Shown: in pieces, positions 2,725 through 61,890 of the stretch | Position numbering within the stretch: position 1 is the stretch's first letter | How the letters are laid out: every line of letters starts with the position of its first letter | Assembly: GCA_918797485.1 (NCBI GenBank) | Contig: CAKKNE010000001.1 | Location: 992,001-1,056,000 of the forward strand | Direction: 5' to 3' | Source of the DNA: Pelagomonas calceolata | Taxonomy: Eukaryota; Sar; Pelagophyceae; Pelagomonadales; Pelagomonadaceae | Length of the DNA: 64,000 bases | Position numbers and translations under genes: made by a program | The notes under the pieces: generated by a model | Databases searched by the model: none | What the model was told of the DNA's origin: nothing | What the model saw: only the letters and a program-made list of their open reading frames with translations

Positions 2725-2747
2725 GCTAGCGTCCTGTAAGGCACTAG
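2725..2747 (-). promoter_or_regulatory. CTAG/GCTAGC promoter-type motif, copy 1
   Basis: GCTAGC followed by a spacer ending TGTAAGGCACTAG; same 23-bp layout as 15 other intergenic copies. It lies 87 bp from the U-box start and 153 bp from the threonine dehydratase start, in a divergent intergenic region with no other feature. Confidence 0.6.
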
Positions 2748-2899
2748 CAAGCAAGCCAGTCGCCGCAATCCACGCAATTAACGCTGCATTCAGCCGCTTT
2801 CGCCCATTGCACACTGCTGCAGGAGTGCTTTGGCATCCGTGGAGCACCTGCTGCGGGCTCACGTGCATAACTCATCGATTGCAAGAGATTGAAGTAGCC

Positions 2900-4679
2900 A
2901 TGCGAGCCGCAACACGCGTCCTGCGCCGCAGCACGACACCCAAAGCACTACGACGCCACGCGGCATCAATAAAAACATTCGACGACCAGTTCGACTACCT
3001 GCGGGAGATCCTCAACAGTAGAGTCTACGACGCGGCCGTCGAGACGCCGCTCCAGCACGCCGCGAAGCTCTCGTCCATAACGAACTGCGACGCCTACGTC
3101 AAAAGGGAGGACCTCCAGCCCGTCTTCTCGTTCAAGATCCGCGGCGCCTACAACCGCATCGTCAATCTCGGAGACGTCAAAGGTGTTGTCGCTTGTTCGG
3201 CGGGTAATCATGCTCAAGGTGTGGCCAAGAGCTGTTCAATACTAAATCTTCCTGCCGTTATAGTGATGCCTTTGGCAACACCTAGAATAAAAGTGGATGC
3301 CGTGGGTAGACACGGTGGTTCGAACGTCGAAGTGCGACTCCATGGCAATACCTACGACGAGGCCGCGGCGGAGGCCAAACGGCTCGTAGATGAGGAAGGA
3401 TTGACCTTAGTTCATCCGTTCGACGACCCTCTCGTTATCGCAGGACAAGGGTCCGTCGGTGCTGAAATATTAAGGCAGAGAAATGGCAGAAGGTTGGATG
3501 CGATCTTCTGCTGCTGTGGGGGTGGCGGGTTGCTGGCCGGCGTCGCGGCCTACGTGAAGCAGGTAAGACCGGACGTGAAGGTGTACGGGGTGGAAGCCGA
3601 GGACGCGGCCGGCATGACGGCTTCGCTCGAAGCGGGCAAGCCCGTCGTGTTGGACCATGTTGGTCTATTTGCGGACGGTGCCGCGGTCAAAGCCATCGGC
3701 CAGGAGACCTTTAAACTGTGCGATCGGTACGTGGACGGCATGATCACCGTCGACAACGACGAGATCTGCGCGCACGCGGCGTCCTTGCATCGTCTGGCGT
3801 GGCGCGTCGATGGCGTCTTAGCTCGACGCGTCGCTTCGATGGCACCGCTCGTCGATGGCGTCTTAGCTCGACGCGTCGCGTCGATGGCGTCGAGGGCGCG
3901 CGCGATCGTCCCGACGCCGTCGCCGCGACACCCAGTGACACGCAGGCGCCGCGATCAAGCAGGGCTTCGAGGACACGAGATGTGTGTTAGAACCCGCAGG
4001 AGCACTGGCCTTGGCGGGCCTGAAGAAGCACGCCTCGTCACAGAGTGGAGACGACGTTCCTACCTATGTAGCGGTCGCGTCCGGCGCGAACATGGACTTT
4101 GACCGGTTGCGCTTCGTGAGCGAGCGAGCGGACACGAGCGAGGTGCGACTAGCTGTCAAGGTGCCCGAGGAGCCGGGCGCGTTCCGGGCGTTTTACGAAC
4201 AGATTTATCCGTGCAACGTGACCGAATTTTCGTACAGATTCTACAAGTCGAACCGGCCGGCGGACATTATCATTGCGTTTCAACCTAGGACGTCGACATA
4301 TATGGAGCGGCTCGAGAAGGGCGGGTATGCACCGAGAAACGTCACGGACGACGATTTGGTGTCCTCGCACTTACGACATGTCGCTGGTGGTCGAAGTGCG
4401 GATGTGGGTAGTGAGCGCTTGTTCCGCTTCGAGTTCCCGGAGGCGCCGGGTGCTCTCAGAAAGTTCCTGTCGTACTTCGAGGACTCGTTCTTCAACGTCT
4501 CGCTGTTTCATTATAGAAACTACGGCCACGACTTCGGGCGGGTCTTGGTGGGCTTGCAGGCCTCCCAAAGCAAGGAGGACGATCAGAAATTAGACGCCTT
4601 CCTGGACGCGCTGGGGTACCGGTACGCGGAGGAGACGAGCAACGCGACGTACAAGCAGTTCATGACCGACGAGGGGTAG
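2900..4679 (+). CDS. ilvA: Threonine dehydratase (biosynthetic), organelle-targeted
   Basis: Exons 2900-3767 and 3946-4679 give 533 residues. The enzyme deaminates threonine to 2-oxobutanoate, the first step to isoleucine, using PLP. The first ~25 residues (MRAATRVLRRSTTPKALRRH) are a basic presequence. The PLP lysine lies in VFSFKIRGAYNR (about residue 79) and the phosphate loop is CCGGGGLLAG. The C-terminal third holds two ACT-like regulatory repeats (VKVPEEPGAFRAFY and FEFPEAPGALRKFL), as in the feedback-inhibited bacterial enzyme of ~514 residues. Splicing restores ICAAIKQGFEDTRCVLEPAG across the junction; unspliced, the frame is lost. The nearest upstream ATG in frame after the promoter motif was taken as start. 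Confidence 0.93.
3768..3945 (+). other. GC-AG intron with tandem hairpin repeats (in ilvA)
   Basis: A 178-nt intron starting GCGCGCACGC and ending CACGCAG, placed because only this pair restores the conserved threonine dehydratase sequence. Inside are two ~50-bp tandem copies of a unit containing TCGATGGCGTCTTAGCTCG, the same TCGATGGCG core that sits in the middle of introners elsewhere in the window. No clean target duplication is visible; GCGC recurs at both ends. Confidence 0.75.
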
Positions 4680-4858
4680 CGTAAGTGTAGTAGCTTTATC
4701 TTGGTCTCCGGCGTCGCGACGTGCGGCGGCGGCGTAGAGCGTCCCGCTGCTACGCCTCGTAGATCCTCTTTTGCGCGTCGCCCCTGTGGGCGTGACTAGT
4801 ATTTGATCGAACTTAGTACGCGCAAGTACCCTGCCCGAAGGGACTCACGGCATGCCAG

Positions 4859-8239: not shown

Positions 8240-9415
8240 TTATGTCAAAGAAGAAGCGTGCGCCCGGATCGCCGCGAGCGCCTGCGGCAGGGCCGGGAAG
8301 ACTGCCGCTACGGATGCGCCCTCGCGGAGCAGGCCGCCCGGCGCGCCGCCGTCGATCACGGCCGGCGTCGGCGCTTCTGCGAGCTCCGCTGCGCAGGCGA
8401 CGCCGTGATGCGACGACGTCACGAGCACGGCGAGAATGCCGGCTCGGCACGCGGCGATCATATCAGTCCTTGCATCTCCCACCAGGACGGCGCGGTCGCG
8501 GTCGGCATCTCCCAGGGCGAGATTCAAAAGATCCGGCGCCGGCTTCAGCGCCGGTCCGTCAAGGCCCGTCGCGACAAATATGTCGTCAACAGGGACCTCC
8601 CTCCGGAGCGACGCGTGTAGCTTGTCGAGCGTCTTTGCCGACAATAGGCCTTTTTTCCTCGCGTTCTGATTCGTGACCACCACACACGCGTGCCCGTCCT
8701 CTTTGAGGGCACGAACGGCGTCTGAGACTCCTGGCAGCAATTCGAATTGTTCCGCGCGCACGACTCCCGGGCTGCCCACGTCTTTGTTGAGCACACCGTC
8801 CCGGTCCAATAACACGGTCCATGGCCGCGGCACCGCGTCTGTTTGCTCGAAGCCGCCGTAGGCATCAGTCGCATCGGCGCCGTCAGTGGTCGCATCAAAG
8901 CCACCGTAGTCGTCCTCCGCGTCGCTCGCCGTCACGCCAGTGTATTGCTCCCACTCGGAACGCCGCTCCGCCGCATCAGCAAGCGCCCATCCTCGTTCGC
9001 GCGCATTAAAACTCGACCACCCGCGCACCTCGTCGTCGGCGAGAAAACACCCGATACACACCGTTCCATCCATAAAGGACGGATTGCGCCGGCAGATGCG
9101 GTTGCAGGGAGACCTCTGCGCGGGTGCCGCCGCTGACACGCCGACGAGCAGCAGCACGCGGCGAGCAGCGTCGAGCAGCAGCGCCGCGCCGGCGAGCGCG
9201 GCGAGCAGCGCGACGACGGGATGCAGTGGCTGTCGTCGCGTCGGCGACGGGCTTCGTGCGGGCGCGGGCGGCGCCCTGCGCTTCTTGGCGGGCGTCCGCG
9301 AGGGCCGCTTCCTCTTCGCCTCGCGCGCCGCGGCCGGGAGCAGGTGCCAGGGCGTGTACCCGCTATTCTTGCGCGCCGAGCGGCGCGAGTCCGCGCGGCG
9401 GTGGGCCGGGCCCAT
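8240..9415 (-). CDS. DUF1289 - HAD phosphatase (GmhB-like) fusion, membrane anchored
   Basis: 391 residues from an ATG at 9415. Order of parts: basic Pro/Arg-rich leader; a hydrophobic helix at ~66-90 (ALLAALAGAALLLDAA); a DUF1289 block (SPCNRICRR..., CIGCFLADDEVRGW, ARERGWAL) with its four cysteines; an acidic linker with two YGGF repeats; then a HAD domain. HAD motifs are LLDRDGVLN (nucleophile Asp), VVVTNQ, and VLVGDARTD, closest to the histidinol-phosphate / heptose-bisphosphate phosphatase group, but the zinc cysteines of GmhB are missing. Substrate is therefore unknown. The ATG follows directly after the stop codon of the 9416-9637 gene on the same strand. Confidence 0.75.
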   Translation of the reverse strand: MGPAHRRADSRRSARKNSGYTPWHLLPAAAREAKRKRPSRTPAKKRRAPPAPARSPSPTRRQPLHPVVALLAALAGAALLLDAARRVLLLVGVSAAAPAQRSPCNRICRRNPSFMDGTVCIGCFLADDEVRGWSSFNARERGWALADAAERRSEWEQYTGVTASDAEDDYGGFDATTDGADATDAYGGFEQTDAVPRPWTVLLDRDGVLNKDVGSPGVVRAEQFELLPGVSDAVRALKEDGHACVVVTNQNARKKGLLSAKTLDKLHASLRREVPVDDIFVATGLDGPALKPAPDLLNLALGDADRDRAVLVGDARTDMIAACRAGILAVLVTSSHHGVACAAELAEAPTPAVIDGGAPGGLLREGASVAAVFPALPQALAAIRAHASSLT

Positions 9416-9637
9416 TTACTCGTCCGGTCGCGGCTGGTTGTAGTACGCGAGCGTGCTGCTGATCGCAAAGATTACGAAACCGACGTCGAGGCTCCGCAGC
9501 ACGCGAGTCTTGGGTCTCGGCACAGCTGCAAATAACGAGGCATACGCATGGATTGTGGCTGCGCTTGCGCAAGCAACGCCCCAGCTAAGTGGCCTGGAGA
9601 CCTCTGGCGTACTCAAGGCTTTCTCTAGAGCATCCAT
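9416..9637 (-). CDS. Small two-helix membrane protein, possibly COX20-like
   Basis: 73 residues from an ATG at 9637. Two hydrophobic segments (roughly 19-38 and 50-66, the second reading SLDVGFVIFAISSTLAYY) are separated by a short basic turn, and the end is NQPRPDE. Size, topology and the charged ends recall COX20-type assembly factors of the mitochondrial inner membrane, but the similarity is weak. The stop TAA at 9418-9416 is followed without spacing by the ATG of the next gene. Confidence 0.5.
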   Translation of the reverse strand: MDALEKALSTPEVSRPLSWGVACASAATIHAYASLFAAVPRPKTRVLRSLDVGFVIFAISSTLAYYNQPRPDE

Positions 9638-9673
9638 GCGCTCATATGCCAGCTTTTTGGCTTGCTGTCCATG

Positions 9674-9695
9674 CTAGTGCCCATATGCAGCTAGC
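9674..9695 (+). promoter_or_regulatory. CTAG/GCTAGC promoter-type motif, diverged copy
   Basis: CTAGTGCCCATATG with GCTAGC closing at 9690-9695. The ends and spacing match the consensus but the middle has diverged. It lies 37 bp from the 9637 start and 131 bp before the 9826 start. Confidence 0.4.
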
Positions 9696-9825
9696 CAACA
9701 AAAATTAATCATCCCCAGATCCTGACAAACATTTAACTGCCTGACGCCTGATCGTCCAGAGCCACGCAGGACCACTTCGGGACCCGCAGCCCTCCCAAGA
9801 GACGCCACCGCTGCCCGCGGCACGC

Positions 9826-11190: not shown

Positions 11191-12777
11191 ATGGACATGG
11201 AGGAGGAGCGCAACCCCTTCACGCTGCCCTCCGATGAGGAGGTCTTCAAGATGCGCGACGAGGAGAAGCGGCGGAAGAAGGAGTACCGGGAGACGCAGTC
11301 GAAGCTGAAAGTCTGGGAAAAAACGACGCGCGGGAAGTTGCCGACCGGCGCTGAAAGGCTGCGGCAGCTCATCGGGGAGGAGGCCGCGGCGAAGCCCAAG
11401 ACGCGGAAGGCCAAGGTCAAGGGCGAAGGTCAACTCGCGAAACAACCGGACGCGCTGGAACGGCGCGGGGAGCGCGAGTGCATGGCCGAGTTTCTCGCGA
11501 AGAAGAAAGAAATGTTTTATACACAACTCTCACTAGATGTGAAGCGCGAGGAGATCCAGAAGCTCCAGGACAAGGCGACGCAGAAGGAGGAAGCACTTAG
11601 GCGTAGTGAGCAGAAGCTCGAGGAGGATGCCATAAGGTTCGACACGTTCCTCAAGGAAAACGACAAGCGCGCCCACGACGCCGTCAAGGAGGCCGAGGCG
11701 GCGACCAAGAAGAAGAATGATAAAGTGCAGGAGATTAAACGACTGAACCAGCAACTACAAGCCGTTTCCAGCGAGATGTCCAAACAAAGAGAAGCTTTAG
11801 ATGACTGTCTTAAATACAGAGAGTTCCTCGACGGATTGACGCCGGAGGTCCACTTCGAGGAGAACAAGAAGCTGAAACGAGAAAGGCAGGAAGCGCGGCG
11901 GCAACGTAGAATCGCGAAGCGCGTCGAGGCCGAGGAGGCGCGGCGGCGAGACGACTACGAGCATGAATTAGCGGCGGCCCAAGCGGCGGCATCGTCACCT
12001 AAAAGGAAAGGCAAGAAGAATAAGGTGGCTCCGGAATCTCCCAAAGTGAAGCCTCCTGAGGATGTCGATCCATCAATGTTCGACGACGAGCCCCTTACCA
12101 GCAGTGACGAGGAGTGCCCCATGTACTTCAAACAACCAAGGCAACTACTGGACATCTTCGAGGAGCTCGAGGAGCAGAATTTGTTTCTCATCCAGAACTG
12201 CCAGGAAACCGAACGCCAGGCCGAGGAGCTCAAGCAACAATTCGCGGATACTCAGACGGAGACCGATGCGAAGGCTGCCTCACAACGGAAGCAAATTCGC
12301 GAGCTCAACAAGGCCATCGACGAGGAGGAGGCGAAGACGGAGAAACTCGAGTTGAGGATGGCGTCGGCCGGGACGGATTCACAACAAGCGGAGCTGCTGC
12401 GGAAATTGAATGATACGACTGCAAGAGTCTATGAGCAGTGCGGCTTCGGCGACGGCGGCGGTCAGACTCTGACCATGCTCGCTGATTTGGAAGCGAGACT
12501 GGAGCAATTATTGGATCATGTGGAAACGTTACCTCCAGATTATGTCGCGAAGGCAGAAAAGTACAAGGAAAAGAAGCGGCGCGAGCGGAATCGCATCGAG
12601 GCCCAGAAGGTCGCCGACGCGGAGCGCGAAGAGAAGAATCGGAAGTCGGTGGAGAGGAGTATGCAGCCCCCGAAGAAGCGGACGGGCCGCATGGTCATGC
12701 ACCGCTCTAGGCCTCCTAGAAAAAAGGTCGACGTCGAGGTCGACGAGGTCAACGACGACGACAAGTACCTGACGTGA
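11191..12777 (+). CDS. Flagellar coiled-coil protein, CFAP100/CFAP73-like
   Basis: 528 residues from ATG 11191 (MDMEEERNPFTLPSDEEVF). The opening NPFTLPSDEEVFKMRDEEK and the following long coiled coil, starting near TQLSLDVKREEIQKLQDKA and ending near the DCLKYREFLDGLTP helix break, have the layout of the DUF4200 domain in CFAP100/CCDC37 and CFAP73, the modifier-of-inner-arms proteins that dock inner dynein arms on axonemal doublets. A second coiled coil fills the C-terminal half, ending in a basic tail. An upstream-extended frame exists but lacks an ATG, so this start is preferred. It implies a flagellated life stage. Confidence 0.72.
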   Translation: MDMEEERNPFTLPSDEEVFKMRDEEKRRKKEYRETQSKLKVWEKTTRGKLPTGAERLRQLIGEEAAAKPKTRKAKVKGEGQLAKQPDALERRGERECMAEFLAKKKEMFYTQLSLDVKREEIQKLQDKATQKEEALRRSEQKLEEDAIRFDTFLKENDKRAHDAVKEAEAATKKKNDKVQEIKRLNQQLQAVSSEMSKQREALDDCLKYREFLDGLTPEVHFEENKKLKRERQEARRQRRIAKRVEAEEARRRDDYEHELAAAQAAASSPKRKGKKNKVAPESPKVKPPEDVDPSMFDDEPLTSSDEECPMYFKQPRQLLDIFEELEEQNLFLIQNCQETERQAEELKQQFADTQTETDAKAASQRKQIRELNKAIDEEEAKTEKLELRMASAGTDSQQAELLRKLNDTTARVYEQCGFGDGGGQTLTMLADLEARLEQLLDHVETLPPDYVAKAEKYKEKKRRERNRIEAQKVADAEREEKNRKSVERSMQPPKKRTGRMVMHRSRPPRKKVDVEVDEVNDDDKYLT

Positions 12778-12960
12778 GTAACTTGGCCTTAGTCTTCTCG
12801 TCGACGGCGTCTGGGAGCCGCGCGGAGTATCTGCCGCGTGGAGTATCTGCCGCATGGTGTGCGTATTGGCCGCGCCTGGAGGCCAGCAATATGTCTTTTA
12901 CGGTGCTAGGACTAGTGGGCGGGGCCCCTGCCCAGGGCTGGGGGCAAGCCAAAATTTGCG

Positions 12961-12982
12961 CTAGTGTCTTACGCCCGCTAGC
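12961..12982 (+). promoter_or_regulatory. CTAG/GCTAGC promoter-type motif
   Basis: CTAGTGTCTTACGCC followed by GCTAGC. It lies 92 bp before the hydrolase ATG and 184 bp after the preceding stop; the rest of the spacer 12778-13073 holds nothing recognisable. Confidence 0.65.
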
Positions 12983-13073
12983 GTGCATTTGTGCGCATGG
13001 CAATTTTCGTGTCGTACGTGGCCGTACAGACACCTTCGGGCCCGATTCATCGCACATCAGCTGCCTGGGCTAC

Positions 13074-14399
13074 ATGCGACGAGCCGTGGCTGTGCTTGCC
13101 TTCAGTTGCTCCACTGCTCTCCACATCAGACCTCTGCGCCAGCGCAGCAGTGCACCAAAAAACGACAGCGGCGCGCCGGCGTTGCGAAGAACTCGCAGCA
13201 CCATTGCGCTCGCGCTGCGCCGCGTTTCTGCGCCGATCAAGTCTGCAATCAGCGCCGCTGCAGTTGCTGTGCTATCCGTGCTCACGGTCGGGGCGTTAAC
13301 CCTAACACCGCCGGACACCCTCGAGAAGGCATCGATGGCGCCGTTCGCCTGGCATTTGTTCTGGCGCCGCGTGACGCGGCCCGAAGCCGCTCAAGCCGAG
13401 GCGCGATTGTTAGACCTCGGCCTCGGCGCGGGACGGTGGCGCCGCAGCGACACCGCCGCGAGCTCGGCACCGGACGACTACGTTCATTCGGTCTCCATCG
13501 ACGGTACCGGCGATGCGACGCTCGTCATGGTCCACGGTTTGGCAAATGGTGGTGGCATCTTCACGCGCAACCTGAGGCCGCTCTCCGCCGCGTTCGCCAG
13601 AATACACGCCGTCGACTGGCGCGGCGCGGGCCTCTCGGGCCGGCCGACGTACGAGCCGGACGACCACGACTCCGCGCGCGACTTTTTGGTTGATGGACTC
13701 GAGGCCTGGCGGGCCAAGGAGGGAGTCGATCGTATGGTACTCCTGGGCCACTCAATGGGTGGCTTGATCTCCGCCCATTACGCGTCGCGTTACCCCGAGC
13801 GCGTGGACCACCTAGTGTTAGTAGGGCCGGCGGCCGTCCAAGCGAGGCCGCGCCGCGTCCAGCCCGGGGAATCAAGAATGTATGATTTAGCTGAGCAGCT
13901 GTGGAAGGACGGGTACACGCCGTCGGGCTTCCTGAACTTTTTAGGGCCCTGGGGCAAGCGGTTGGTTGAAAGATATGCGGTCCGGCGGTACGGTCTGGCG
14001 GACGAGGAATATAATGAGGCGTTAGCTGATTACATTTATGCGATCCAAAGCCTGGGTATTGGCTCGGCGGCCTCGATGAACCAGCTGCTCGCGCCGATCG
14101 CCCAGCCCAAGGTTCCCATCGCGCCTATTGTGGAGAAGCTGCCGATGCCCGTGACGTATATTTACGGTGAGCACGATTGGATGGATCCGCGAAGCGGCGT
14201 GGCCTCTGCGGCCCGATGCCGCGTCGACGGCGTTGCACGGGTGCTCCCGGGCGGCGGCCACTACATCTTCATCGACCAGCCCGAGTTGTTCGAAAACGCG
14301 TTGCTCGACCGAGTCGCGCCCGGCGCGCCTCATCGCGTGGCCGTCCGGCATCCGACCCCTGCAGGAGCGACGCCGGCCGGCGCGGCCTATTCTAAGTGA
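13074..14399 (+). CDS. Alpha/beta hydrolase, ABHD4/ABHD5 (CGI-58) type, plastid-targeted leader
   Basis: 441 residues from ATG 13074, chosen because it lies downstream of the promoter motif and opens a signal-plus-transit leader (MRRAVAVLAFSCSTALHIRP). The hydrolase core has the oxyanion HGLANGGG strand, the nucleophile elbow LLGHSMGG, the acid in YGEHDWMD, and the catalytic His in GGHYIFIDQPE. That last stretch is also the H-x4-D motif typical of the CGI-58 acyltransferase/lipase cofactor family. The nucleophile is Ser, as in ABHD4, not the Asn of animal ABHD5, so the enzyme should be active on acyl lipids. Confidence 0.85.
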   Translation: MRRAVAVLAFSCSTALHIRPLRQRSSAPKNDSGAPALRRTRSTIALALRRVSAPIKSAISAAAVAVLSVLTVGALTLTPPDTLEKASMAPFAWHLFWRRVTRPEAAQAEARLLDLGLGAGRWRRSDTAASSAPDDYVHSVSIDGTGDATLVMVHGLANGGGIFTRNLRPLSAAFARIHAVDWRGAGLSGRPTYEPDDHDSARDFLVDGLEAWRAKEGVDRMVLLGHSMGGLISAHYASRYPERVDHLVLVGPAAVQARPRRVQPGESRMYDLAEQLWKDGYTPSGFLNFLGPWGKRLVERYAVRRYGLADEEYNEALADYIYAIQSLGIGSAASMNQLLAPIAQPKVPIAPIVEKLPMPVTYIYGEHDWMDPRSGVASAARCRVDGVARVLPGGGHYIFIDQPELFENALLDRVAPGAPHRVAVRHPTPAGATPAGAAYSK

Positions 14400-14427: not shown

Positions 14428-15624
14428 TCACACACACCGCCGCTGGAAGTCGTCCACGCCGCGCGCGAGCAGCTCCCGCGCGACCAGGCCCTGAGGCATG
14501 TTCAGGTTCAACCGCGGCTGGCGCGACAGCAGCTGCTCGAACGACGTCGAGCAGTTCTCGCCGCGCGCGAAGCGCTGGTGCGCGACGAGCGACGTCCACG
14601 TGCTATCGGCCGTCCCCACGAAGGCGGCGGCCCGCTCGCACATTTCTTGTTCGACGAGCGACGTCATATAGTTGTCCTGATCGCCGACCGACGCGGATTC
14701 CGAATTCAACGAGCCGTTCCGCAAGAACCCGAGTAACGCGGCGCCCTCGCTCCGGAAGGGTCCCTGCCGCAGGGCCACGCGCGACACATAAATGTCGGCG
14801 ACGCCCACCGCCTTTGATGCCTCTCGCAGCGTCTCGGCGAGGCGCCGCGTGGCCACGTAGCCGGCCTTCACGGGCGGGCACGAGACCTGGGGCGCCCGGA
14901 CGCTGCCCCCGTCGCGACACCGCTGCGCGTTCTCGACTCTCCTGATATGCGCGCAGAGGTAGGGCCGGTCGCCAAACAGCTTTGTCCTCAGTTGAGCAGC
15001 CTTTTCGCGTATCGCCGGCGCCCGCCTTAACGCGCGGACGGCTTGGAGCGTCCGGGGCTTCCTCAGGGCGCGCTGTCCGTAGAGCCCGTTCATGGACGCC
15101 CAGAGCGCAGCGCCGAGGACCCGATCGTTGTAGTTCTCGCTCAAACATCGCGCGAAGGAGCCCCACGTTTTCTCCCGCGCTCGACAGCGCTGGCGCGCCG
15201 CCGGCGTCAGCAGCGGCGTCGACGTCGCTTGCGTGGCGCACCAGCCGCCCCGTATCCCGGCCATGCCGCAGATGACGCGGAGCTCGTGTTTTGGTTTTTT
15301 TGCGCCGCCGGCCGCCACGATCGTCGTACCTGCCTCGCCCATGTCTTTCGTAGAAACGACGTCGACGAATCTCTTGACCGCATCAACGTCAAAGGTCGCT
15401 CTGAACGCGTGGACGCGCTGGCGGTCGCCGCCGCCGGGCCAGGACAGAAAGGGCGCGAGGACTATTTTCCTTCTCAAAGCTTTTGCGAGCACCATGCTCT
15501 CGAGGAACTGTTGATATTGATTGTTCGGGCCGCCCTGGATCATGATTGGGTACAAGAGCTTCTTTTCAGCGACCGGTGGCGCCGCCGCGGCGACGGCGGC
15601 GACGACGTGCGGCCAGCAGCGCAT
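14428..15624 (-). CDS. Secreted protein O-fucosyltransferase-like protein
   Basis: 398 residues from ATG 15624 with a short hydrophobic leader (WPHVVAAVAAAAPPVA). The block GGPNNQYQQFLESMVLAKAL followed by a hydrophobic strand (KIVLAPFLSW) is the standard start of GDP-fucose O-fucosyltransferase folds, and YLCAHIRRVEN is the matching H-x-R donor segment. A C-terminal TADSTWTSLV strand also fits. It likely acts in ER/Golgi; the acceptor is unknown. The 27-bp gap to the hydrolase stop makes the pair tail to tail. Confidence 0.72.
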   Translation of the reverse strand: MRCWPHVVAAVAAAAPPVAEKKLLYPIMIQGGPNNQYQQFLESMVLAKALRRKIVLAPFLSWPGGGDRQRVHAFRATFDVDAVKRFVDVVSTKDMGEAGTTIVAAGGAKKPKHELRVICGMAGIRGGWCATQATSTPLLTPAARQRCRAREKTWGSFARCLSENYNDRVLGAALWASMNGLYGQRALRKPRTLQAVRALRRAPAIREKAAQLRTKLFGDRPYLCAHIRRVENAQRCRDGGSVRAPQVSCPPVKAGYVATRRLAETLREASKAVGVADIYVSRVALRQGPFRSEGAALLGFLRNGSLNSESASVGDQDNYMTSLVEQEMCERAAAFVGTADSTWTSLVAHQRFARGENCSTSFEQLLSRQPRLNLNMPQGLVARELLARGVDDFQRRCV

Positions 15625-15763
15625 GGCTCACACAGCCGCACGGATGGAAACCGCGGCTGCTGCTGGCGCGGGCTCACACGGACGATCGTTTGCACTTGTT
15701 AGGCCGTGCTGGCTTCATTGCTTTGAGGTGTTTTGCTAACTTTGCTTTGCCTGCCTGCTTGCT

Positions 15764-15788
15764 CTAGAGTGTCTTACAGGACGCTAGC
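15764..15788 (+). promoter_or_regulatory. CTAG/GCTAGC promoter-type motif
   Basis: CTAGAGTGTCTTACAGGA followed by GCTAGC (two bases longer than consensus). It sits 140 bp upstream of the O-fucosyltransferase-like start and 70 bp beyond the end of psbU. Confidence 0.6.
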
Positions 15789-15857
15789 GCGATTTTGAAT
15801 CAGCCGTCACACCTCGAATAAACATTCGTATTAAAAATATCCGTCCGGCGCGGCGCG

Positions 15858-16302
15858 TCACCGTCGGTTCGTCTGGACCTGGCGGATCTGCTCGTCGCGG
15901 TAGCCGCCGCCCTTGCCCCGGCCGCACTCGTACTTGCAGATCTGACTGCCCTTGTACTGCATGACCGCCGAGTCTCGCGTTGAGGACTATGGCCGCGTCG
16001 TACTTCCTGAGCGCGGCGCGTTCCACGTCCGTATCGAGGGCGGCGTACATGTCCCGCTTGGACTTGAACGGGCCGCGCTTGACGAGCTTGGTCCCGACGG
16101 TGGGGAAGAGGCCGGGGTACGCGGAAAACTCGCGGGCCATGGCATTGTTCACGTCGATCTTGGCGTTCGCCGGCAGCGCGACGAATGCGCCCGCGACCGC
16201 CGCGGCACCGAACGCGCGCCGCGACTTCTCCACGAGCGGCAGCGGCGCGTTGGACGGCCTCAGAGCTGCGGCTGAGGTTATTAGGCTTAACAAGAGACGC
16301 AT
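15858..16302 (-). CDS. psbU: Photosystem II extrinsic protein PsbU (apparent frameshift)
   Basis: Starts at ATG 16302. The leader has an ER-type signal (MRLLLSLITSAAALRP), a transit stretch, then a thylakoid signal (RRAFGAAAVAGAFVALPANA) cut before KIDVNNAM. The mature part AREFSAYPGLFPTVGTKLVK is the PsbU helix-hairpin-helix that stabilises the oxygen-evolving complex in the lumen. The true C-terminus, KGSQICKYECGRG...GGYRDEQIRQVQ and stop at 15860-15858, lies in another frame; the shift falls near 15971-15977, where AGAGAC would be expected instead of AGAC. That is a two-base loss or an assembly error. Ignoring it yields an arginine-rich nonsense tail ending at 15784. Confidence 0.88.
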
Positions 16303-16505
16303 TGAAGCGGCTGTCAGCTGTTCTCAGTGCACGCAAATTGCACCTAGGCCTCAGAACGCAGCCGAGGGGCTGCACGCAAATTGTCGCGCCTGCTGATAAG
16401 TGACAAGGCGCGGAGACCTTTCAATCGTCCACCTGGGTCGTGCGGCGTGAGACAGGGCAGCAATCAGGCAGCAATCTGCCGTCAAATGATCGGCCGTAAA
16501 AGTGG

Positions 16506-16528
16506 AGCTAGCGGCATGTAAGGCACTA
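16506..16528 (-). promoter_or_regulatory. CTAG/GCTAGC promoter-type motif
   Basis: GCTAGCGGCATGTAAGGCA ending CTAG, inside the divergent spacer between psbU (204 bp) and the 16666 gene (138 bp). Nothing else is seen in 16303-16665. Confidence 0.65.
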
Positions 16529-16665
16529 GCAAGCAGCCGGCAGTCGACTGCATCTCTTGCGTACTGCTGTTATAGATGCCACCAGGGCATTCCTGACTCT
16601 ATTTCCAGCGTTTTTGACCTAACGCCAGCCTGCGCGTGGAGCGAAAGGCGGAGTGACGCGCAAAA

Positions 16666-17723: not shown

Positions 17724-17841
17724 GGCTCCCACGTCTGCTCTTAGCGTCAGCACGGCTTGCCAGCGGCCCAAGGAGGATCAATGATTAAACGTACGAACGC
17801 CAGCGCCGCGTGCAGCCTACTAAAGGACTGCTGCCATATTC

Positions 17842-17864
17842 CTAGTATGTCAATACACGCTAGC
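17842..17864 (+). promoter_or_regulatory. CTAG/GCTAGC promoter-type motif, diverged copy
   Basis: CTAGTATGTCAATACAC followed by GCTAGC; correct 23-bp length but altered middle. It is 119 bp from the 17723 start and 278 bp before the methyltransferase start, in a 418-bp divergent spacer with no other signal. Confidence 0.5.
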
Positions 17865-18141
17865 TGCCTTTTACGAGGCAAATTGCGCGTAGGTCGAATA
17901 CGTACGCGTTAAGCGCGTCGCGGGACTTCTACGGTCACCACCAATCGCGCTGTGGCCACTGCGCCCCACGCTTAACTCCGTACGGCGACTGCACACATTG
18001 CTCTCCGTGCTCTGCTCTCAGGCGCAGCTCGCTCGTCACACCGCTGCACACTGACATCCATTGTGCACACTAACATGGACGTCTCTGCACAAGCGTTCCG
18101 AGACAGATGGTCATTAAGCGACTGTTGACTTGACGGGACTA

Positions 18142-20477: not shown

Positions 20478-20500
20478 GCTAGCGTGAGTATAGCTACTAG
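20478..20500 (-). promoter_or_regulatory. CTAG/GCTAGC promoter-type motif, diverged copy
   Basis: GCTAGCGTGAGTATAG ending CTAG; ends and 23-bp length are kept, the middle is altered. It is 63 bp upstream of the M48 peptidase start; the neighbour on the other side is the 3' end of the WD40 gene. Confidence 0.4.
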
Positions 20501-27855: not shown

Positions 27856-27876
27856 CTAGTATCTTAGACCGCTAGC
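27856..27876 (+). promoter_or_regulatory. CTAG/GCTAGC promoter-type motif
   Basis: CTAGTATCTTAGACC followed by GCTAGC, 90 bp from the signal peptidase start and 299 bp from the 28175 start; nothing else is seen in 27767-28174. Confidence 0.6.
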
Positions 27877-30990: not shown

Positions 30991-31013
30991 GCTAGCGGCA
31001 TCTAAGACACTAG
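30991..31013 (-). promoter_or_regulatory. CTAG/GCTAGC promoter-type motif
   Basis: GCTAGCGGCATCTAAGACA ending CTAG, 182 bp upstream of the propeller-like gene; the other neighbour is the 3' end of the 31071 gene. Confidence 0.65.
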
Positions 31014-32010: not shown

Positions 32011-32033
32011 CTAGTGTGTTACATACCGCTAGC
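32011..32033 (+). promoter_or_regulatory. CTAG/GCTAGC promoter-type motif
   Basis: CTAGTGTGTTACATACC followed by GCTAGC, in the divergent spacer between the methyltransferase-like and F-box genes. Confidence 0.65.
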
Positions 32034-34709: not shown

Positions 34710-34732
34710 CTAGTGTCTTACATTACGCTAGC
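34710..34732 (+). promoter_or_regulatory. CTAG/GCTAGC promoter-type motif
   Basis: CTAGTGTCTTACATTAC closing with GCTAGC, 173 bp from the GT11 start and 227 bp before the kinase ATG; no other signal in 34538-34958. Confidence 0.7.
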
Positions 34733-36954: not shown

Positions 36955-36977
36955 GCTAGCGGTCTGTAACACACTAG
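36955..36977 (-). promoter_or_regulatory. CTAG/GCTAGC promoter-type motif
   Basis: GCTAGCGGTCTGTAACACA ending CTAG, in the divergent spacer between the SAM-like gene (247 bp) and COX15 (116 bp). The spacer 36709-37092 also has GCGATGGCGTACAGGC at 36914, a short string seen near 30893 as well. Confidence 0.65.
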
Positions 36978-44868: not shown

Positions 44869-44891
44869 CTAGTGTCTTACATGCCGCTAGC
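44869..44891 (+). promoter_or_regulatory. CTAG/GCTAGC promoter-type motif
   Basis: CTAGTGTCTTACATGCC then GCTAGC, the copy closest to consensus; 174 bp from the LRR-like start and 92 bp before the acylphosphatase-like ATG. Confidence 0.75.
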
Positions 44892-44982
44892 TCCGGCTGG
44901 AGCCCGGATTCGCCTGCGTGTCTCCGCGCCTCGCAGCATAGGTGTCAATCCTGCCAGTACGACGTCGCCTGTTACTCACAGG

Positions 44983-48500: not shown

Positions 48501-49638
48501 CATCGACAGGACCGTCTCCTTCGCGCTCGATCATGGGGCAGTTTCCGGCCAATATGGGCGCGCCTTGGGGATAAGTAGCTAAAGCTGTTACCGCTAAATC
48601 GGCAAAGGTCAGGGCTAAAATAACAACAAGAACGACATTCGACTCCTGGATGGCTAGTATTCTGCCATCTCTGTCAAATTCTCGGAGGTCTTCCGGGACC
48701 TCGACCAGCCCACCGAGCAATCTCCAGTCCCGCTCATCCTCCGGCACGACCGCGAGCATGCCAAAGCAACACGTCGCCTCGCCCTCCTCCACAATCTCCT
48801 CGTCGGACGATTCGGAGTCACTTGGCAATATCAGCGGCTCGTCGTCTTCGACGAGTTTCTCGGAAACGCACGCATAGAGCCACAGACCCGCGATGCACAA
48901 AGCTGCTTTCTCCTTGCTGTCCTTCGCTCTTTCTAGGGCCTCCTGGACGGACTCGGCCAAGGATCTCCGAGAGGCTTGTGATTCGTACGTTTCTTCATCA
49001 TCTTCGATCGACGGCGCGGGCGCAGGCGCCGTCGACGCGTTGCTGTACTCGTCCCATAATACGATGTCCGTGCCGGGCGCGGGCGCGGGCGCCGGTCCTG
49101 GTGCAGGCGCCGGGCCGCACGCTTCGACGTCGTACATGCCGGGTACAGGCGCCTCGGCGACGGGCGGCGCGGGCCCAGGGGCGCCCGGGAAGCGCCACGC
49201 GATAGCGCCGCGAAGTCTCCCGAAGCGCGTCGGCGACGGCGACCGGCCCACCGGCGACGGCGCGCCGGAGCTCGGCGGCGACGGGACCGCGTCGAGCGTC
49301 GGTGACGACGACTGGCCCACGGGCGACGGTGAGCTCGGCGGCGCTGGCCCGGGCGCGGCGCCCGGCGCGCGGCGCCGCGCGAACCGGGCCGCGAGGCCCG
49401 CTGGTCTCAAGCTCCCGAAGCGCGTGGGCGACGACCCGCCGGAACTTGGCGGCGACGCCTCGCCGGGCGCCGGCGGCGCCGGCGCCGGATGCACGCGCGC
49501 GGCCGGCGCCGGATGCACGCGCGCGGCCGGCGCCGGCCGCGGCAGGCTCGATGCTATCCGGCCCGCCGCGTCCAGGCTCCGGAGGCCGGCGGACCGCAGG
49601 GGCGACGGGCGCCCCTGGCCGGGGCTGCCCTCAGGCAT
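45542..49638 (-). CDS. Voltage-sensor domain fused to ankyrin repeats, no pore domain
   Basis: Exons 49638-47394 and 47121-45542 give 1274 residues. Residues 1-~200 are Pro/Ala-rich with tandem ARVHPAP units. S1 (VVLVVILALTFADLAVTALA) is near 335; a ~260-residue cysteine-rich extracellular loop follows; S2 (VFGNVVLAIFCVEIFLRLRQ) is near 613, S3 (ILDFSLVAIDLIVLLITLAL) near 650, and S4 (IMRAMRIFRMMRAVRAARAV) near 690 with Arg at every third position. Instead of S5-pore-S6 the chain enters ankyrin repeats (DIFDAAAAGNLAMIAKK, LGETALHVAALRGHERVC, ATPLWNACQAGKLKAAKVLL) and then a long charged coiled coil. Splicing joins EEELDP to DDPDYDEEE. Sits in a membrane; effect of voltage unknown. Confidence 0.75.
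47122..47393 (-). other. Introner-like intron rich in TCGATGGCG hairpins (VSD-ankyrin gene)
   Basis: 272 nt on the minus strand, GTGCGGTGCCGCG at the donor and CCCCGCGCAG at the acceptor. CGACCCCG occurs on both sides (47394-47401 and 47113-47120), a perfect 8-bp duplication. Inside are at least five GCCATCGA/TCGATGGC half-hairpins. Ends resemble family B. Here the donor lies at the element edge, so one duplicated copy remains in the mRNA. Confidence 0.72.
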
Positions 49639-49890
49639 ACTGTTAGCTTCTATGCGAGCGGGGCTGCGTGAGCTGGTCCGGCGGCATCGTCGGTCAGACG
49701 CGTGATGCCTTTTGTGCGTCGACAGTGCGCCATCGCTCTCCCACCACGCGGGAGGCAGCCCACAATTGCCGCTGTCTAGCGCTCTCCCGCCGCTTCGCGA
49801 TCCCGGCGGTTGCAATCTTGGAGCTCGCGGAGGGCTCCATGCGTGTTGCTGATTGAGGAGAGGTATCTCTTGGAAAACGAAGCTTGCTTG

Positions 49891-49909
49891 CTAGTGTCTT
49901 ACCGCTAGC
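49891..49909 (+). promoter_or_regulatory. CTAG/GCTAGC promoter-type motif, short copy
   Basis: CTAGTGTCTTACC directly followed by GCTAGC (four bases shorter). It lies 253 bp from the VSD-ankyrin start and 54 bp before the FKBP start; no other signal in 49639-49962. Confidence 0.62.
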
Positions 49910-49962
49910 TCTGCGTGAGAGCCGAGGAGCTCTCGGCACCTATACGAGCTCGCAACTTAGTT

Positions 49963-50871: not shown

Positions 50872-52392
50872 TTAAACATCACTAGTGAGGAGGGGCTCCG
50901 CGAGCGCGCCCGTGCCTTCGGCGAGGCGGCCTGAGGCTTCCTGAACTTGCTTCTCCCAATCTAAAGACCGCAAGGCGAGCAACTGGAGGACGAACGACGT
51001 CGCGAGGCCGAGCGCACAACAGCACAACAGGACCGGAGCCGCACTTTGATCTAAATCTAAACCAAAGAGCAAGCCAAGCGCCACCGGGGCTGCGACGCCG
51101 TACCACCCGATGAGGTTCGACATAGCTATCCGCTGGGGCGCGCCGGCGCCCGACAGCGTGCCCTGTATACAGACGTTCTGCGCGTCGAAGAAGACAAGCA
51201 ATGCGAGGGCCGGCACGCATCGACTCGTCAAGTCCACGACGTCCGAATCGTGCGAGTAGAGGCGCGCGATCAAAGGTCGCGCCACGATCAAGCCGGCGGC
51301 AGTGATCGCGGCGGCGCAGAACGCGGCCAAAACGCCGAGTCGAGCGGCGCGCTTGGCGCCCTTGGGATCGCCCGCGCCGACCTGGGCGCCCACGGCGACT
51401 GATGTTGCGACCATCGCACCCAACCAACACATCTCCAGCACCGTCTGAATATTGAGCGCACAAGTAACAGCAGCAAGCACGGCCGGCGACCGCCGCGTCC
51501 CGGCCAGCGCAATCACAAATTCCATGGACCACCACTCCAGAAGACTCGCGACCAACCCCGGCAGCGACAGCCCGAGGAACTCGCGGACACCTCTACGATC
51601 AAAAACCTCGCCGATCGACCGCGGCCGGAAGACGTGGCCCAATCCGACATAGAGGCAGTACGGTATTTGTAGAAGGAGGTATTGATTGTTCGTGATGGAG
51701 GAGGCCCACGCCGCGCCCACGAAGCCCAGACCGTGGCGGTAGACGAGGAAATTCTGCCACGCGGGGGCGGTCGCGAAGACCGTAGCGCAGATCGCCAGAT
51801 TCGCGAAAACGTGGCCCTCCGCGGTCATGACGCGCTGCACGATGGTCATGCACGGGATGCCGAAGAGGGCAGGTAATAAAGCGAGGCCGTAGCGTTGCGC
51901 GCGCTTCGCTAGCTGTTTTGGTTGGCCGAGGACATGTATTAAAACTGCATCGGCGAAGTAGATGCCGATGATACCTATAATGGCGGCGAGGGCGACGATG
52001 GCCAATGCCCGCTGCGCGTAGAGGCCGTGCAGTTCTTTCCCTTTCCTCGCGCCGGCGGCCTGGGGGCAGAGCGTCCTTAATGCTGATATCAGACCATAGC
52101 TCGTGGAGAAGCAGCTGATGTTGAAATAGGACCGGCCGAGGCCTACCGCGTCCAGGTCGTCGGCGTCGCCGCGGCGGCCGATGAAGTACAACGCCACGGA
52201 GACCGGCAGGTACTCGGCGAGGTTCGCGAGGGCCGTCGGGATGGCGATGCGGAGGAGCGCGCGGAGGCCGCCTTTCGCATCACTGCTTGCTGCTGCAGCA
52301 GTGTCAGTCTCTGGTGGCGGCCTTGCTGCTGCAGCAGTGTCAGGTGGCGGCTCAGCATCGCTGCAATTGGCTTCGCTGGCGGTCGTAGCCAT
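50872..52392 (-). CDS. MATE-family multidrug/metabolite antiporter
   Basis: 506 residues from ATG 52392. Twelve hydrophobic segments in two similar halves. Family marks: ALRTLCPQAAGARKGKELHG (first half signature: L-x-x-Q-x-x-GA), PCMTIVQRVMTAEGHVF, and in the second half VAVGAQVGAGDPKGAKRAAR. Such carriers export organic cations or metabolites against H+ or Na+. N-terminus is low-complexity (TAAAARPPPETDTAAAASSD, a short duplicated unit). The stop lies six bases from the FKBP stop on the other strand. Confidence 0.9.
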   Translation of the reverse strand: MATTASEANCSDAEPPPDTAAAARPPPETDTAAAASSDAKGGLRALLRIAIPTALANLAEYLPVSVALYFIGRRGDADDLDAVGLGRSYFNISCFSTSYGLISALRTLCPQAAGARKGKELHGLYAQRALAIVALAAIIGIIGIYFADAVLIHVLGQPKQLAKRAQRYGLALLPALFGIPCMTIVQRVMTAEGHVFANLAICATVFATAPAWQNFLVYRHGLGFVGAAWASSITNNQYLLLQIPYCLYVGLGHVFRPRSIGEVFDRRGVREFLGLSLPGLVASLLEWWSMEFVIALAGTRRSPAVLAAVTCALNIQTVLEMCWLGAMVATSVAVGAQVGAGDPKGAKRAARLGVLAAFCAAAITAAGLIVARPLIARLYSHDSDVVDLTSRCVPALALLVFFDAQNVCIQGTLSGAGAPQRIAMSNLIGWYGVAAPVALGLLFGLDLDQSAAPVLLCCCALGLATSFVLQLLALRSLDWEKQVQEASGRLAEGTGALAEPLLTSDV

Positions 52393-52478
52393 TATTGAGC
52401 TGTTGTTTCCAGTCGTGCGATGATCCTTACTGCAATCGTGTGACTTACACAGCGTGGCTAAAGCGAGCTTGCATTTTC

Positions 52479-52497
52479 CTAGTGTAAGGACGCTAGA
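52479..52497 (+). promoter_or_regulatory. CTAG/GCTAGC promoter-type motif, short diverged copy
   Basis: CTAGTGTAAGGAC then GCTAGA; four bases shorter than consensus. It lies 87 bp from the MATE start and 285 bp before the LHC-like start. Confidence 0.45.
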
Positions 52498-52666
52498 TAA
52501 TCCGCGGAGCTGGCATCCCAGGCTTCGTCCCCGCTCACGCGCCAACCACAACAGAAAAAAGTTCCGGACTGGTTGGAGAATCTCACAGAGCTGCCAACAC
52601 GGCGTCAACGAACTTTGCATCAGCAGGCGTGCGCCTCGGACACGACGTAACCCATACCACCTGCTT

Positions 52667-52768
52667 CGAAGGTGGCCACAACGCTGTTCGTCGCTGGAAG
52701 AACGGCTCTAGATCCACACTGGTCACGAAGGTGGCCACGCCAGCGACGAACCGCTCTAGATCCACACT
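52667..52768. repeat. Duplicated unit with internal inverted repeat upstream of the LHC-like gene
   Basis: CGAAGGTGGCCAC (52667, 52726) and CTCTAGATCCACACT (52706, 52754) each occur twice in the same order. Between them GTTCGTCGCTGG (52686-52697) and CCAGCGACGAAC (52740-52751) are exact inverted copies. The unit ends 13 bp before the ATG and thus lies in the promoter or 5' UTR. Confidence 0.7.
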
Positions 52769-52781
52769 AAACTAAGCAACA

Positions 52782-53555
52782 ATGACGCCGACGCGCCACC
52801 AAGCGCTCCTCGCCGTCCTAGCGGCCGCCACCGCCCTGTCACCAACACGCCGCGCCGCGCTTAAAGCAAAAAAAGAAGTTCCTGTCTTCGACGCGAACGC
52901 CTACAAGAGGAAGTACTACGCGAATTTTGCCGAGGCCAAATGGCGCCAGCGAAACGAGCTAGCAACAGCGACGACGCGCCAGGCCGTCATTCCGGAGCCG
53001 GTGGAGCGGCCGCAGCTCGGCGACCTCTTCGCGATGGACCCGAACGTCGAGGAGCCCGTCGGCTGGCGCGACCTCTTCGTCACGAAAACGGTGCCCATCA
53101 AGTACCGCAAGCGCCAGGAGCTGAAGCGCGCCTTCTACAAGGCGGCGGAGCGCGAGCACGGCCGCGCGGCGTTATTGGGCGCCGCGTTCATCTCGAGCGT
53201 GGCGTGGGACGCGCGCCTCGGTCCGCTCGTGCTGTTTGCGCGCTGCGGCTGCCCGCAAGCTTTAAATCAGTTCGCGGAGGGCGCGCCGAATGTGTTAATA
53301 GAGGGCCCGCTCGCGGCGATGAGCCTCGCGTATCTCGTGAGGGAGCTGCACCGGTCCTTCAACCCCGTCGGTGTCGAAATGCGGGACCTCGACGCCTCGC
53401 AGCAGAAGGCGCGCGGTTTATCTCTTAGGGCGGAGCTCTTCCAGGGCCGCGTCGCGATGCTGGGCACGGCGGCGGTCGTGCTCCTCGCGGGGCCGCAGCA
53501 CACTGTGAGCGAGGCCGTCGGCGACGTCGTGGACGCCGTCGTGGGCACGCTCTGA
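52782..53555 (+). CDS. LHC-like (ELIP/RedCAP-type) plastid protein
   Basis: 257 residues from ATG 52782; leader MTPTRHQALLAVLAAATALS. Two chlorophyll-binding-type helices are visible: AEREHGRAALLGAAFISSVA and AELFQGRVAMLGTAAVVLLA, each with E-x-x-x-GR-x-A-M/L-LG. Between them is a less conserved hydrophobic stretch. This is the core of the extended LHC superfamily (stress-inducible or red-lineage LHC-like proteins) rather than a full antenna protein, since other LHC ligand residues are lacking. Thylakoid membrane. Confidence 0.75.
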   Translation: MTPTRHQALLAVLAAATALSPTRRAALKAKKEVPVFDANAYKRKYYANFAEAKWRQRNELATATTRQAVIPEPVERPQLGDLFAMDPNVEEPVGWRDLFVTKTVPIKYRKRQELKRAFYKAAEREHGRAALLGAAFISSVAWDARLGPLVLFARCGCPQALNQFAEGAPNVLIEGPLAAMSLAYLVRELHRSFNPVGVEMRDLDASQQKARGLSLRAELFQGRVAMLGTAAVVLLAGPQHTVSEAVGDVVDAVVGTL

Positions 53556-60300: not shown

Positions 60301-60370
60301 GAGAGTACATAGGGCATCGACGCGACGCCGCCATCGTAGTTAGTTTGTAAGACATACCAAACACAATTAC

Positions 60371-61723
60371 TCAGAAACGCTGCTCGAAGTCGAGGTCCTC
60401 CCTCCGGACCGAGGGATTGTACTGGAGGTTGATGCCGCGCAGCGTGACGTCGTATTCGAGCGTCGCGCCGCCCGGCACCCCGAACGCGCGCGAGCCTCTA
60501 TCGCCGAAACCAAGCGCAGGCGGCACGCGCAGCACGCGTCGCTCGCCGATGCACATGTCATACAGCCCCAGCTCGAGACCTTTCAGCACCTCCCCGCTCC
60601 CAAGCATCGCCGCGAAGCGGCTCCGTCGATCGAACACGCCGCCGTCGACGACGCTGCCGACGTAGTCAATTTCGACCACGTCCGCGTCTCTGGAACGCAT
60701 GCAACCGGTCGCGGCCGCGGGCCCCGGCTCGACCTTGAGCACGTTTATACGCGACGTCCGGAAGCCCTGATCTTGCGCCTCTTTTTCAACATAATCCGCG
60801 CGCGCCTTGATGTCGGTGCGTGGATCGTCAGCAGCGTGCGCGCGCGGCGCGAAAGCGAGCGCCGTCGCGCCGAGGACGCTTCGGCGGTCCACGCCCGTCG
60901 TCGTGTCATCAATCACACGAGATGCAGTATGCAACACGACGTCGTACACACCGCTCGCCGTCGTGATCGACGACCGCGCCGTCGCCACGCGCAGCCCTAC
61001 GGCCCGCAAGGCGTCTTCCAGGTCGCTGGGCGCCGCGCGCGCATACTTCGCGTCGGACCAGTCCCGCTCGGCCGAAAACGCGTACAGGACGCCGTCCTCT
61101 GCTAAATGATGAGCGATACAGTTCGCCAACGGTTCTATAGCTTCCGGCGCGTAGACGCAGTCCGCGCAAACCACGACGTCGACCGGTTCGAGCCAACTCT
61201 CGGAGTCCGCCCAGTCGACCCGTTTCGAGTCGACCTGATCGAAGCCGTTCGCGATGCACGTCCGCCGCTGCGCGTCTAGTAATCCGGACGGCGCGTCGAA
61301 GTCCCTATCATTAACAGCGTCGAGGTCCGTCAACGTGACATGAGCGGCGTCCGTGACGGCCGCGACCGCGCAGCCGAACAGCCCCACGCCGCTCCCCAAC
61401 TCCAGCACGCGCTTGCCCTCGAATAAGGCCTTGTTTTGACAAGCCCAGGCGGCGCCGGCCAAAGCTGCCGGCCAGACTTGATACCCAAGTTTGCCCTCGA
61501 AAAAGCTGCACTCGTAGAGCGTCAGCATTTTCGAGCCATCCAGCACAAAGGTCCGGCCCTCGGCCTTGGTCGTGACCTCGAGCAGGTCCGTTTTGTCTTT
61601 ACCGTCGGTCAGCGTGTAGGTGCGCTGGGCGCGTAATGCGACGGTTCTGGCGTGCGATTTGTGTGGGGGCTGGTAGGCTGTTGTCGTGCAGAGCAGCAGC
61701 AGGGCTGTCATTTGTGGCGGCAT
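60371..61723 (-). CDS. Methyltransferase-FKBP fusion with an internal thylakoid signal
   Basis: 450 residues from ATG 61723; leader MPPQMTALLLLCTTTAYQPP. Residues ~60-255 are a METTL21-type methyltransferase: LGYQVWPAALAGAAWACQN, VLELGSGVGLFGCAVAA, VTLTDLD, VDVVVCADCVYAPEAIEPL. Residues ~279-298 (DRRSVLGATALAFAPRAHAA) read as a twin-arginine thylakoid transfer signal in mid-chain. Residues ~340-435 are an FKBP: VEIDYVGSVVDGGVFDRRS, ELGLYDMCIGERRVLRVPPA, LGFGDRGSRAFGVPGGATLE. If processed, the methyltransferase would stay in the stroma and the FKBP would enter the lumen. The frame is unbroken. Confidence 0.82.
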   Translation of the reverse strand: MPPQMTALLLLCTTTAYQPPHKSHARTVALRAQRTYTLTDGKDKTDLLEVTTKAEGRTFVLDGSKMLTLYECSFFEGKLGYQVWPAALAGAAWACQNKALFEGKRVLELGSGVGLFGCAVAAVTDAAHVTLTDLDAVNDRDFDAPSGLLDAQRRTCIANGFDQVDSKRVDWADSESWLEPVDVVVCADCVYAPEAIEPLANCIAHHLAEDGVLYAFSAERDWSDAKYARAAPSDLEDALRAVGLRVATARSSITTASGVYDVVLHTASRVIDDTTTGVDRRSVLGATALAFAPRAHAADDPRTDIKARADYVEKEAQDQGFRTSRINVLKVEPGPAAATGCMRSRDADVVEIDYVGSVVDGGVFDRRSRFAAMLGSGEVLKGLELGLYDMCIGERRVLRVPPALGFGDRGSRAFGVPGGATLEYDVTLRGINLQYNPSVRREDLDFEQRF

Positions 61724-61867
61724 GACTTGTGAAAACGCAGGGCGCGGTCGCGTTGTTGGCGAGGGCACGGGTGCGCAGACGTCTCGGGAGTCTTAAAACG
61801 AGCGATGCCGCTCTGGCTTGCTTGTACGGCGTCAAAAACAAGCTTTTGCTTGCTTGCTTGCTGGAGC

Positions 61868-61890
61868 CTAGTGTGTTACAAGTCGCTAGC
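61868..61890 (+). promoter_or_regulatory. CTAG/GCTAGC promoter-type motif
   Basis: CTAGTGTGTTACAAGTC followed by GCTAGC, 145 bp from the fusion gene start and 163 bp before the sulfotransferase ATG; nothing else in 61724-62052. Confidence 0.68.

Follow-up and report, generated by a model that had tools for sequence, protein, structure and literature searches.

A bipartite 26-27-bp motif concentrated in divergent promoter gaps of Pelagomonas calceolata, the putative site of an abundant DNA-binding protein

The sites of the yeast general regulatory factors (Reb1, Abf1, Rap1 and Cbf1) are short, lie in promoter gaps beside A/T runs and often serve divergent genes, and that of Abf1 is also bipartite. 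Core promoter elements are usually directional and lie within ~40 bp of the start site; the oomycete INR reads YCATTYY. The main text of a study of oomycete core elements, in which the string CTAG does not appear, gives a forward bias for INR+FPR, INR, FPR and DPEP (ratios of 5.9, 2.9, 1.8 and 1.8, respectively) and, for CCAAT, 984 forward and 969 reverse matches, mostly within 150 nt of the start codon (PMC3599244). In another stramenopile example, the heat shock factor site of Phytophthora infestans is TTCTAGAA, with CTAG at its centre; the string GCTAGC is absent from the main text of that report (PMC11267843). Here we describe a motif with two CTAG-containing arms in the pelagophyte alga Pelagomonas calceolata, starting from a 64-kb stretch of contig 1 (bases 992,001-1,056,000; GC 62.5%), hereafter the window, in an assembly of 32,445,274 bases and 8 contigs. 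The main text of the genome paper describes the RCC100 genome as six nuclear contigs of 32.4 Mb plus a plastid and a mitochondrial contig, with 63% nuclear GC and 16,667 genes (PMC9481584). Among named database entries, those nearest to the COX15 protein encoded in the window are Aureococcus proteins. A first-pass annotation of the window had listed 16 intergenic copies of a 23-bp motif and read it as a bidirectional core-promoter element or the site of a major transcription factor. As judged from the DNA, there is a probability of roughly three in four (about 0.77) that the motif is the site of one abundant sequence-specific DNA-binding protein and serves as an orientation-free, bidirectional proximal promoter element.

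Over 89 sites the motif refines to TTGCTAGTGTCTTACA-n-GCCGCTAGCT, two fixed arms joined by a spacer of variable length and bounded by sharp edges, with information near background a few bases beyond each block (outside -3 on the left and +6 on the right). The CTAG-spacer-GCTAGC pattern first proposed is right and its length of 23 bp is not: the conserved stretch is 26-27 bp, taking in TTG before and T after the bases originally described, and the span from CTAG to GCTAGC is ~19-24 bp, since the spacer length differs between copies. TTAC and GCTAGC are separated by 5 bases in 57 sites, 4 in 13, 3 in 11, 6 in 6 and 1 in 2. Within the consensus CTAGTGTCTTAC and CGCTAGC are near-invariant, the core columns partly because 51 of the 89 sites belong to contig 1 loci that were chosen for an exact core match in or next to them; the outer TTG and T, conserved at ~65-79%, are columns free of this selection. 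The outer arms are inverted copies of GCTAGYG and the core between them is asymmetric. In a minority of sites the arms are retained around another core, such as GTCAAT in the window copy at 17842, and similar cores occur at other places in the genome, among the first 100 matches listed in the search for CTAGT-N6-13-GCTAGC. Conservation that stops at the edges of the 27 bp agrees with the initial view that this is not a dispersed repeat.

The abundance of the motif far exceeds that of its controls. Genome-wide, TGTCTTAC-N3-12-GCTAGC has 1914 matches vs 1 for the reversed pattern, the arm pair CTAGT-N6-13-GCTAGC 3947 vs 174, and the self-complementary GCTAGYGT-N5-9-ACRCTAGC 524 per strand (1048 counting both strands) vs 0, while two further motif patterns gave 79 vs 0 and 839 vs 0. 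With the arms at an off-spacing of N14-18, 290 matches compare with 109 in the control, and many of those listed are extended or longer-spaced versions of the motif. A position matrix that leaves the spacer free was trained on the 51 core-selected sites, all of them outside the window and the sample stretches, and applied to 254 kb of DNA, consisting of the window and 190 kb outside it. The sample comprised 20 ten-kb stretches at preset coordinates, chosen regardless of the motif, of which 19 were scanned; one (L026), a duplicate of another (L009), was left out of site, gap and composition counts and included in the training of the coding model. At a score of at least 18 there were 41 matches vs 0.33 per order-2 shuffle, an excess over shuffled sequence of the kind the initial claim called for, and at a score of at least 14 there were 44 vs 4.0; the window has 4 exact matches, and 100 window shuffles have none. 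Scaled from the densities at 18 or above, these counts suggest a nuclear total of ~4,400 sites (from the 190 kb outside the window) to 5,200 (from all 254 kb).

The same searches turned up several other sequences. A recurrent long-spacer version of the motif, CTAGTGTCTTACCTGTACAGGCCGCTAGC, with the palindromic CTGTACAG inside it, lies at C1:1866233, C1:5495238, C2:2050196 and C2:3759684 (among the first 100 matches listed in the off-spacing search), and a separate recurrent element, CTAGTTACTCGGTTTTGGGGACGCTAGC, occurs with small variants at C1:1909186, C1:2922836, C2:391191 and C2:3380834 (among the first 100 matches listed in the off-spacing search). L009 and L026, on contigs 1 and 5, share motif copies at shifted places, which fits the duplication of the ends of these contigs reported in the main text of PMC9481584. 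In viral contigs a stricter pattern had 0 matches, and a looser one matched at least 120 stretches with one match apiece, which reads as chance.

The sites are concentrated in gaps upstream of genes, above all between divergent genes. The share of gaps holding a strong site (score of at least 14) is 26 of 43 where the flanking genes diverge, 11 of 68 where they run in tandem and 1 of 48 where they converge (divergent vs convergent, Fisher p = 2e-10); coding segments under 120 bp were ignored (under 90 bp for direction and distance counts), and the tandem share is lowered because some "tandem gaps" will be introns. Coding DNA has 2 such sites in 188,700 bases, a density no higher than shuffles give. 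Equal density in coding or convergent regions had been named as evidence that would speak against a promoter element; the density instead drops from 1.21 strong sites per kb between divergent genes to 0.11 between convergent ones and 0.011 in coding sequence, and the proposal survives this test. Outside the window 16 of 27 divergent gaps carry a site, so the result was not created by the region first annotated. The 89 sites, defined with at most three mismatches, fall 50 in divergent, 26 in tandem and 2 in convergent gaps, with 11 at the edge of a stretch and 0 in coding DNA, and the 38 from the unselected sample (window included) divide into 25 divergent, 10 tandem, 1 convergent and 2 at an edge.

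Within these gaps no preferred orientation of the motif was detected. The 26 tandem-gap sites split into 11 in the direction of the gene and 15 in the opposite one (p = 0.56), so that the directionality relative to the gene looked for in a core promoter element is not seen, and in divergent gaps the gene on the left-arm side is the nearer in 28 of 47 (Wilcoxon p = 0.56). Over 47 sites, the predicted ATG flanking the left arm is a median of 183 bp away; for the one flanking the right arm, over 50 sites, the figure is 206.5 bp. Since a signal acting in the transcript could work in one orientation only, the motif is most likely a DNA element.

The flanking DNA carries a step in strand composition that follows the motif more closely than it follows the ATG. 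The step was measured on 125 promoter arms longer than 60 bp and shorter than 450 bp, each followed from the motif outward. T drops relative to A ~120 bp from the motif, and the likelihood gain of this T-to-A step is 65.5 when anchored on the motif vs 42.5 on the ATG, or 40.0 vs 19.5 when the first 40 bp are dropped. The motif anchor wins in 97% of 300 bootstraps, in which the step falls at 120-135 bp (5th to 95th percentile), and once the anchor is blurred by 0-80 bp a gain of 47.6 shrinks to 32.2 on average (at most 42.2 in 100 trials). AAAA/TTTT words are frequent in the 40 bp next to the motif edges, and CATTY, in a comparison found post hoc, peaks 60-79 bp from the motif with 13 sense and 0 antisense occurrences. 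We infer that transcription starts outward on both sides, ~60-120 bp from the motif. Around the motif the oomycete-type INR YCATTYY gives no signal (7 sense, 6 antisense); CCAAT is lacking from the consensus and not enriched in the promoter arms (9 sense, 14 antisense around the motif); and differences between motif and motif-less promoters are not significant for TATAAA (0/52 vs 2/34, p = 0.15) or TATAA[AG] (1/52 vs 4/34, p = 0.08).

Contigs from other assemblies offer a further view of the motif. A scan of bacterial and archaeal genomes returned 3 matches (L221, L222 and L223), all in metagenome-assembled genomes (MAGs) labelled as bacteria and presumably from ocean samples, as their run and isolate names suggest. 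Since about two chance matches are expected for that pattern (20 fixed bases, four spacings, 257 Gb), the three carry weight only with backing from the surrounding sequence. Such backing exists for L222 (NZGT01000013.1), where 8 kb hold five motif copies scoring 14.4 to 40.6, every one of them in a gap that the coding model treats as non-coding. L222 is collinear with P. calceolata contig 6 (2,236,569-2,246,679) over eight blocks that are 83-94% identical, and so is a mis-binned contig of a relative. Its copies at 2198-2220 and 4290-4310 lie at the edges of aligned blocks 2199-3288 and 4288-4588, and the other three lie outside the blocks; the alignment suggests that these two copies are kept in the P. 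calceolata genome. The L221 copy lies inside a block 96% identical to P. calceolata contig 1, and short weak matches aside, only bases 2043-3615 of L221 match the alga. Over the whole MAGs, the arm-pattern counts of 1, 12 and 2 vs 240, 60 and 66 in the reversed control show no excess, and none would be expected with just a few algal contigs among them. L222 also holds a stretch of ~157 bp (299-455) that matches at least 39 places in the P. calceolata genome at 80-88% identity (40 of 271 candidates scored); by its sequence this stretch is an interspersed repeat, perhaps an Introner-type element.

In the mechanism that we propose, one abundant nuclear protein, either a dimer or a multi-domain protein, would bind the double-stranded motif and, held in the middle of a divergent gap, would keep nucleosomes off it and recruit the initiation machinery on both sides, with transcription starting outward within the zone given above and one element serving both genes. 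Protein binding, the opening of chromatin and the composition step as a mark of start sites are parts of this scheme that we infer from sequence. Several observations weigh against it. The gene borders come from a coding model trained on the DNA, without annotation. A strong site is missing from 17 of 43 divergent gaps, which means that the element is not universal, and two of the 89 sites lie in convergent gaps. A rigid dimer site would not usually have a spacer of varying length. All five sites in L222 are in tandem gaps and all point against the gene; pooled with the 26 tandem sites of P. calceolata they give 11 with and 20 against (p = 0.15), and there may be a weak preference of orientation.

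The closest rival to a regulatory protein bound at a distance is a true core promoter element, set at a constant distance from the start and read by the basal machinery itself (a complex resembling TBP, SNAPc or an Inr binder). A composition step anchored on the motif and the motif's presence in 26 of 43 divergent gaps would suit such an element, whereas the lack of a direction preference and a probable start zone 60-120 bp away would not, and we consider it unlikely. The same two features favour a transcription-factor site, so that of the pair of readings offered by the first-pass annotation the second gains over a core element at the start site itself. The anchored step and the bias among gaps also bear on the idea, which we think quite improbable, that the motif is an element of chromosome architecture or replication, such as an origin-recognition or insulator site placed in open intergenic DNA. 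A long site with no orientation preference, intergenic, present in several thousand copies and flanked by A/T runs is what that idea would lead one to look for; sites are far fewer in tandem gaps (11 of 68) and almost absent from convergent ones (1 of 48), which, together with a step anchored on the site, would be unexpected if gene starts were irrelevant.

High copy number and the look of an inverted repeat could equally recall a mobile element that has left a footprint or a solo remnant, for instance one of Introner type, and Introner-like intron lengths are reported for Pelagomonas in the main text of PMC9481584. Yet the 89 sites have no common sequence beyond ~27 bp and are concentrated in promoter gaps, and such an origin is very unlikely. 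Hardly credible at all is a signal at the level of RNA (a hairpin, a 5' splice site or a spliced-leader-like sequence read in the transcript): on the consensus the arms could pair with one G-U, and GTAAG on the reverse strand resembles a 5' splice site, but the motif occurs in both orientations relative to genes (11 with and 15 against in tandem gaps) and precedes the zone in which transcription probably starts.

The window itself holds all 16 copies first listed, a CTAG...CTAG motif being found within 2 bases of each coordinate. Twelve lie in divergent gaps, so that 12 of the 16 divergent gaps of the coding model carry the motif, as had been claimed, with a strong site in 10 of them; none of the four divergent pairs named as lacking the motif has a strong site. 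On the forward strand, strong copies in divergent gaps are those at 27856..27876 (score 31.9; gap 27636-28177), 32011..32033 (36.6; 31810-32167), 34710..34732 (35.3; 34554-34969) and 61868..61890 (31.2; 61627-62063), together with the highest-scoring of the 16 at 44869..44891 (43.3; 43246-45056) and a short-spacer copy at 49891..49909 (38.0; 49623-49922). Those on the reverse strand are at 2725..2747 (38.8; 2606-2978), 16507..16529 (38.8; 16257-16680) and 36955..36977 (36.5; 36702-37209). The copy with the variant core GTCAAT occupies 17842..17864 (+, 22.5; 17771-18189). Two forward-strand copies are weak, that at 9674..9695 with its arms kept and its core diverged (9.1; 9414-9779) and that at 52479..52497 shortened, likewise with arms but no core (7.9; 52282-52784), and these are the exceptions to a matrix score of at least 18, which 14 of the 16 reach. 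The remaining four copies lie between same-strand genes: 12961..12982 (+, strong, 32.1; 12775-13275), 15766..15788 (+, strong, 28.3; 15608-15964), whose first CTAG starts at 15764, 20478..20500 (-, variant core, 18.2; 20339-20549) and 30991..31013 (-, strong, 36.5; 30814-31090). While the listed copies are indeed intergenic, a further strong match at 23024 (21.2), absent from the original list, sits within coding sequence. Neither RNA families (at gathering score) nor tRNAs were found in the window.

Divergent gaps that lack the motif may contain another word. AAAACCCG (or its complement CGGGTTTT) is present in 6 of 17 motif-less divergent gaps, at L015:4557, L020:3148, L025:4871, L028:1525 and window positions 40833 and 56040, vs 0 of 26 with the motif, and in independent upstream regions AAAACCCG points weakly in the same direction (5 of 20 without the motif vs 1 of 12 with it). 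It is only a lead, because the word was picked after looking at many, and these gaps are possibly a second promoter class. A more speculative extension, doubtful as it stands, is that pelagophytes have alternative promoter classes, the main one built on one 27-bp element and one lineage-specific protein that fixes both start zones ~100 bp to either side in place of TATA/Inr logic, and the second on another element, perhaps ACGGGTTTT. Gene function gave no significant link: a strong site lies upstream of 10 of 20 proteasome-family genes (sampled from 27 matches) vs 2 of 12 light-harvesting genes (from 93 matches), with p = 0.075.

In the pelagophyte and stramenopile promoter literature, and with the motif strings, no report of the motif as a promoter element was found, most subscription journals being outside the scope of the search. 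Among the matches listed for the motif strings, one paper, on yeast diphthamide, contains the 12-letter string, and no title concerns pelagophytes. The words "motif" and "intergenic" are absent from the main text of the genome paper (PMC9481584), as are "motif", "promoter" and "transcription factor" from the main text of a 2026 paper on Pelagomonas physiology. The motif could serve as bait for a main transcription factor, help to sort genes by promoter class and mark pelagophyte contigs that were mis-binned into bacterial MAGs; should one site set both start zones, it would also provide a simple model from nature for the architecture of bidirectional promoters.

Among known systems, the oomycete INR, FPR and DPEP resemble the algal motif as gene-start elements from the same eukaryotic supergroup, but as described in the core-element study they are directional, 7-16 nt long and at or near the start site. 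Oomycete CCAAT, as presented there, is a stramenopile promoter element without direction bias, like the algal motif, and unlike it a short site, and the P. infestans TTCTAGAA, in the form given in its report, is one 8-bp palindrome, without two CTAG arms or an asymmetric core. The vertebrate ZNF143 motif (SBS) is closer in kind: it too is long, lies in the upstream promoter region and stimulates initiation. ZNF143, however, is an animal protein with multiple zinc fingers, its site has no inverted CTAG arms and its sequence is unrelated to that of the algal motif. The algal motif shows the enrichment in promoter gaps, the depletion in coding and convergent DNA and, a possible weak preference aside, the independence of orientation that are expected of a site of the yeast general regulatory factor type; it differs from the yeast sites in sequence and is set apart by its 26-27 bp and variable spacer. 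In the best reading of these likenesses, the motif would work as the yeast general regulatory factors or ZNF143 do.

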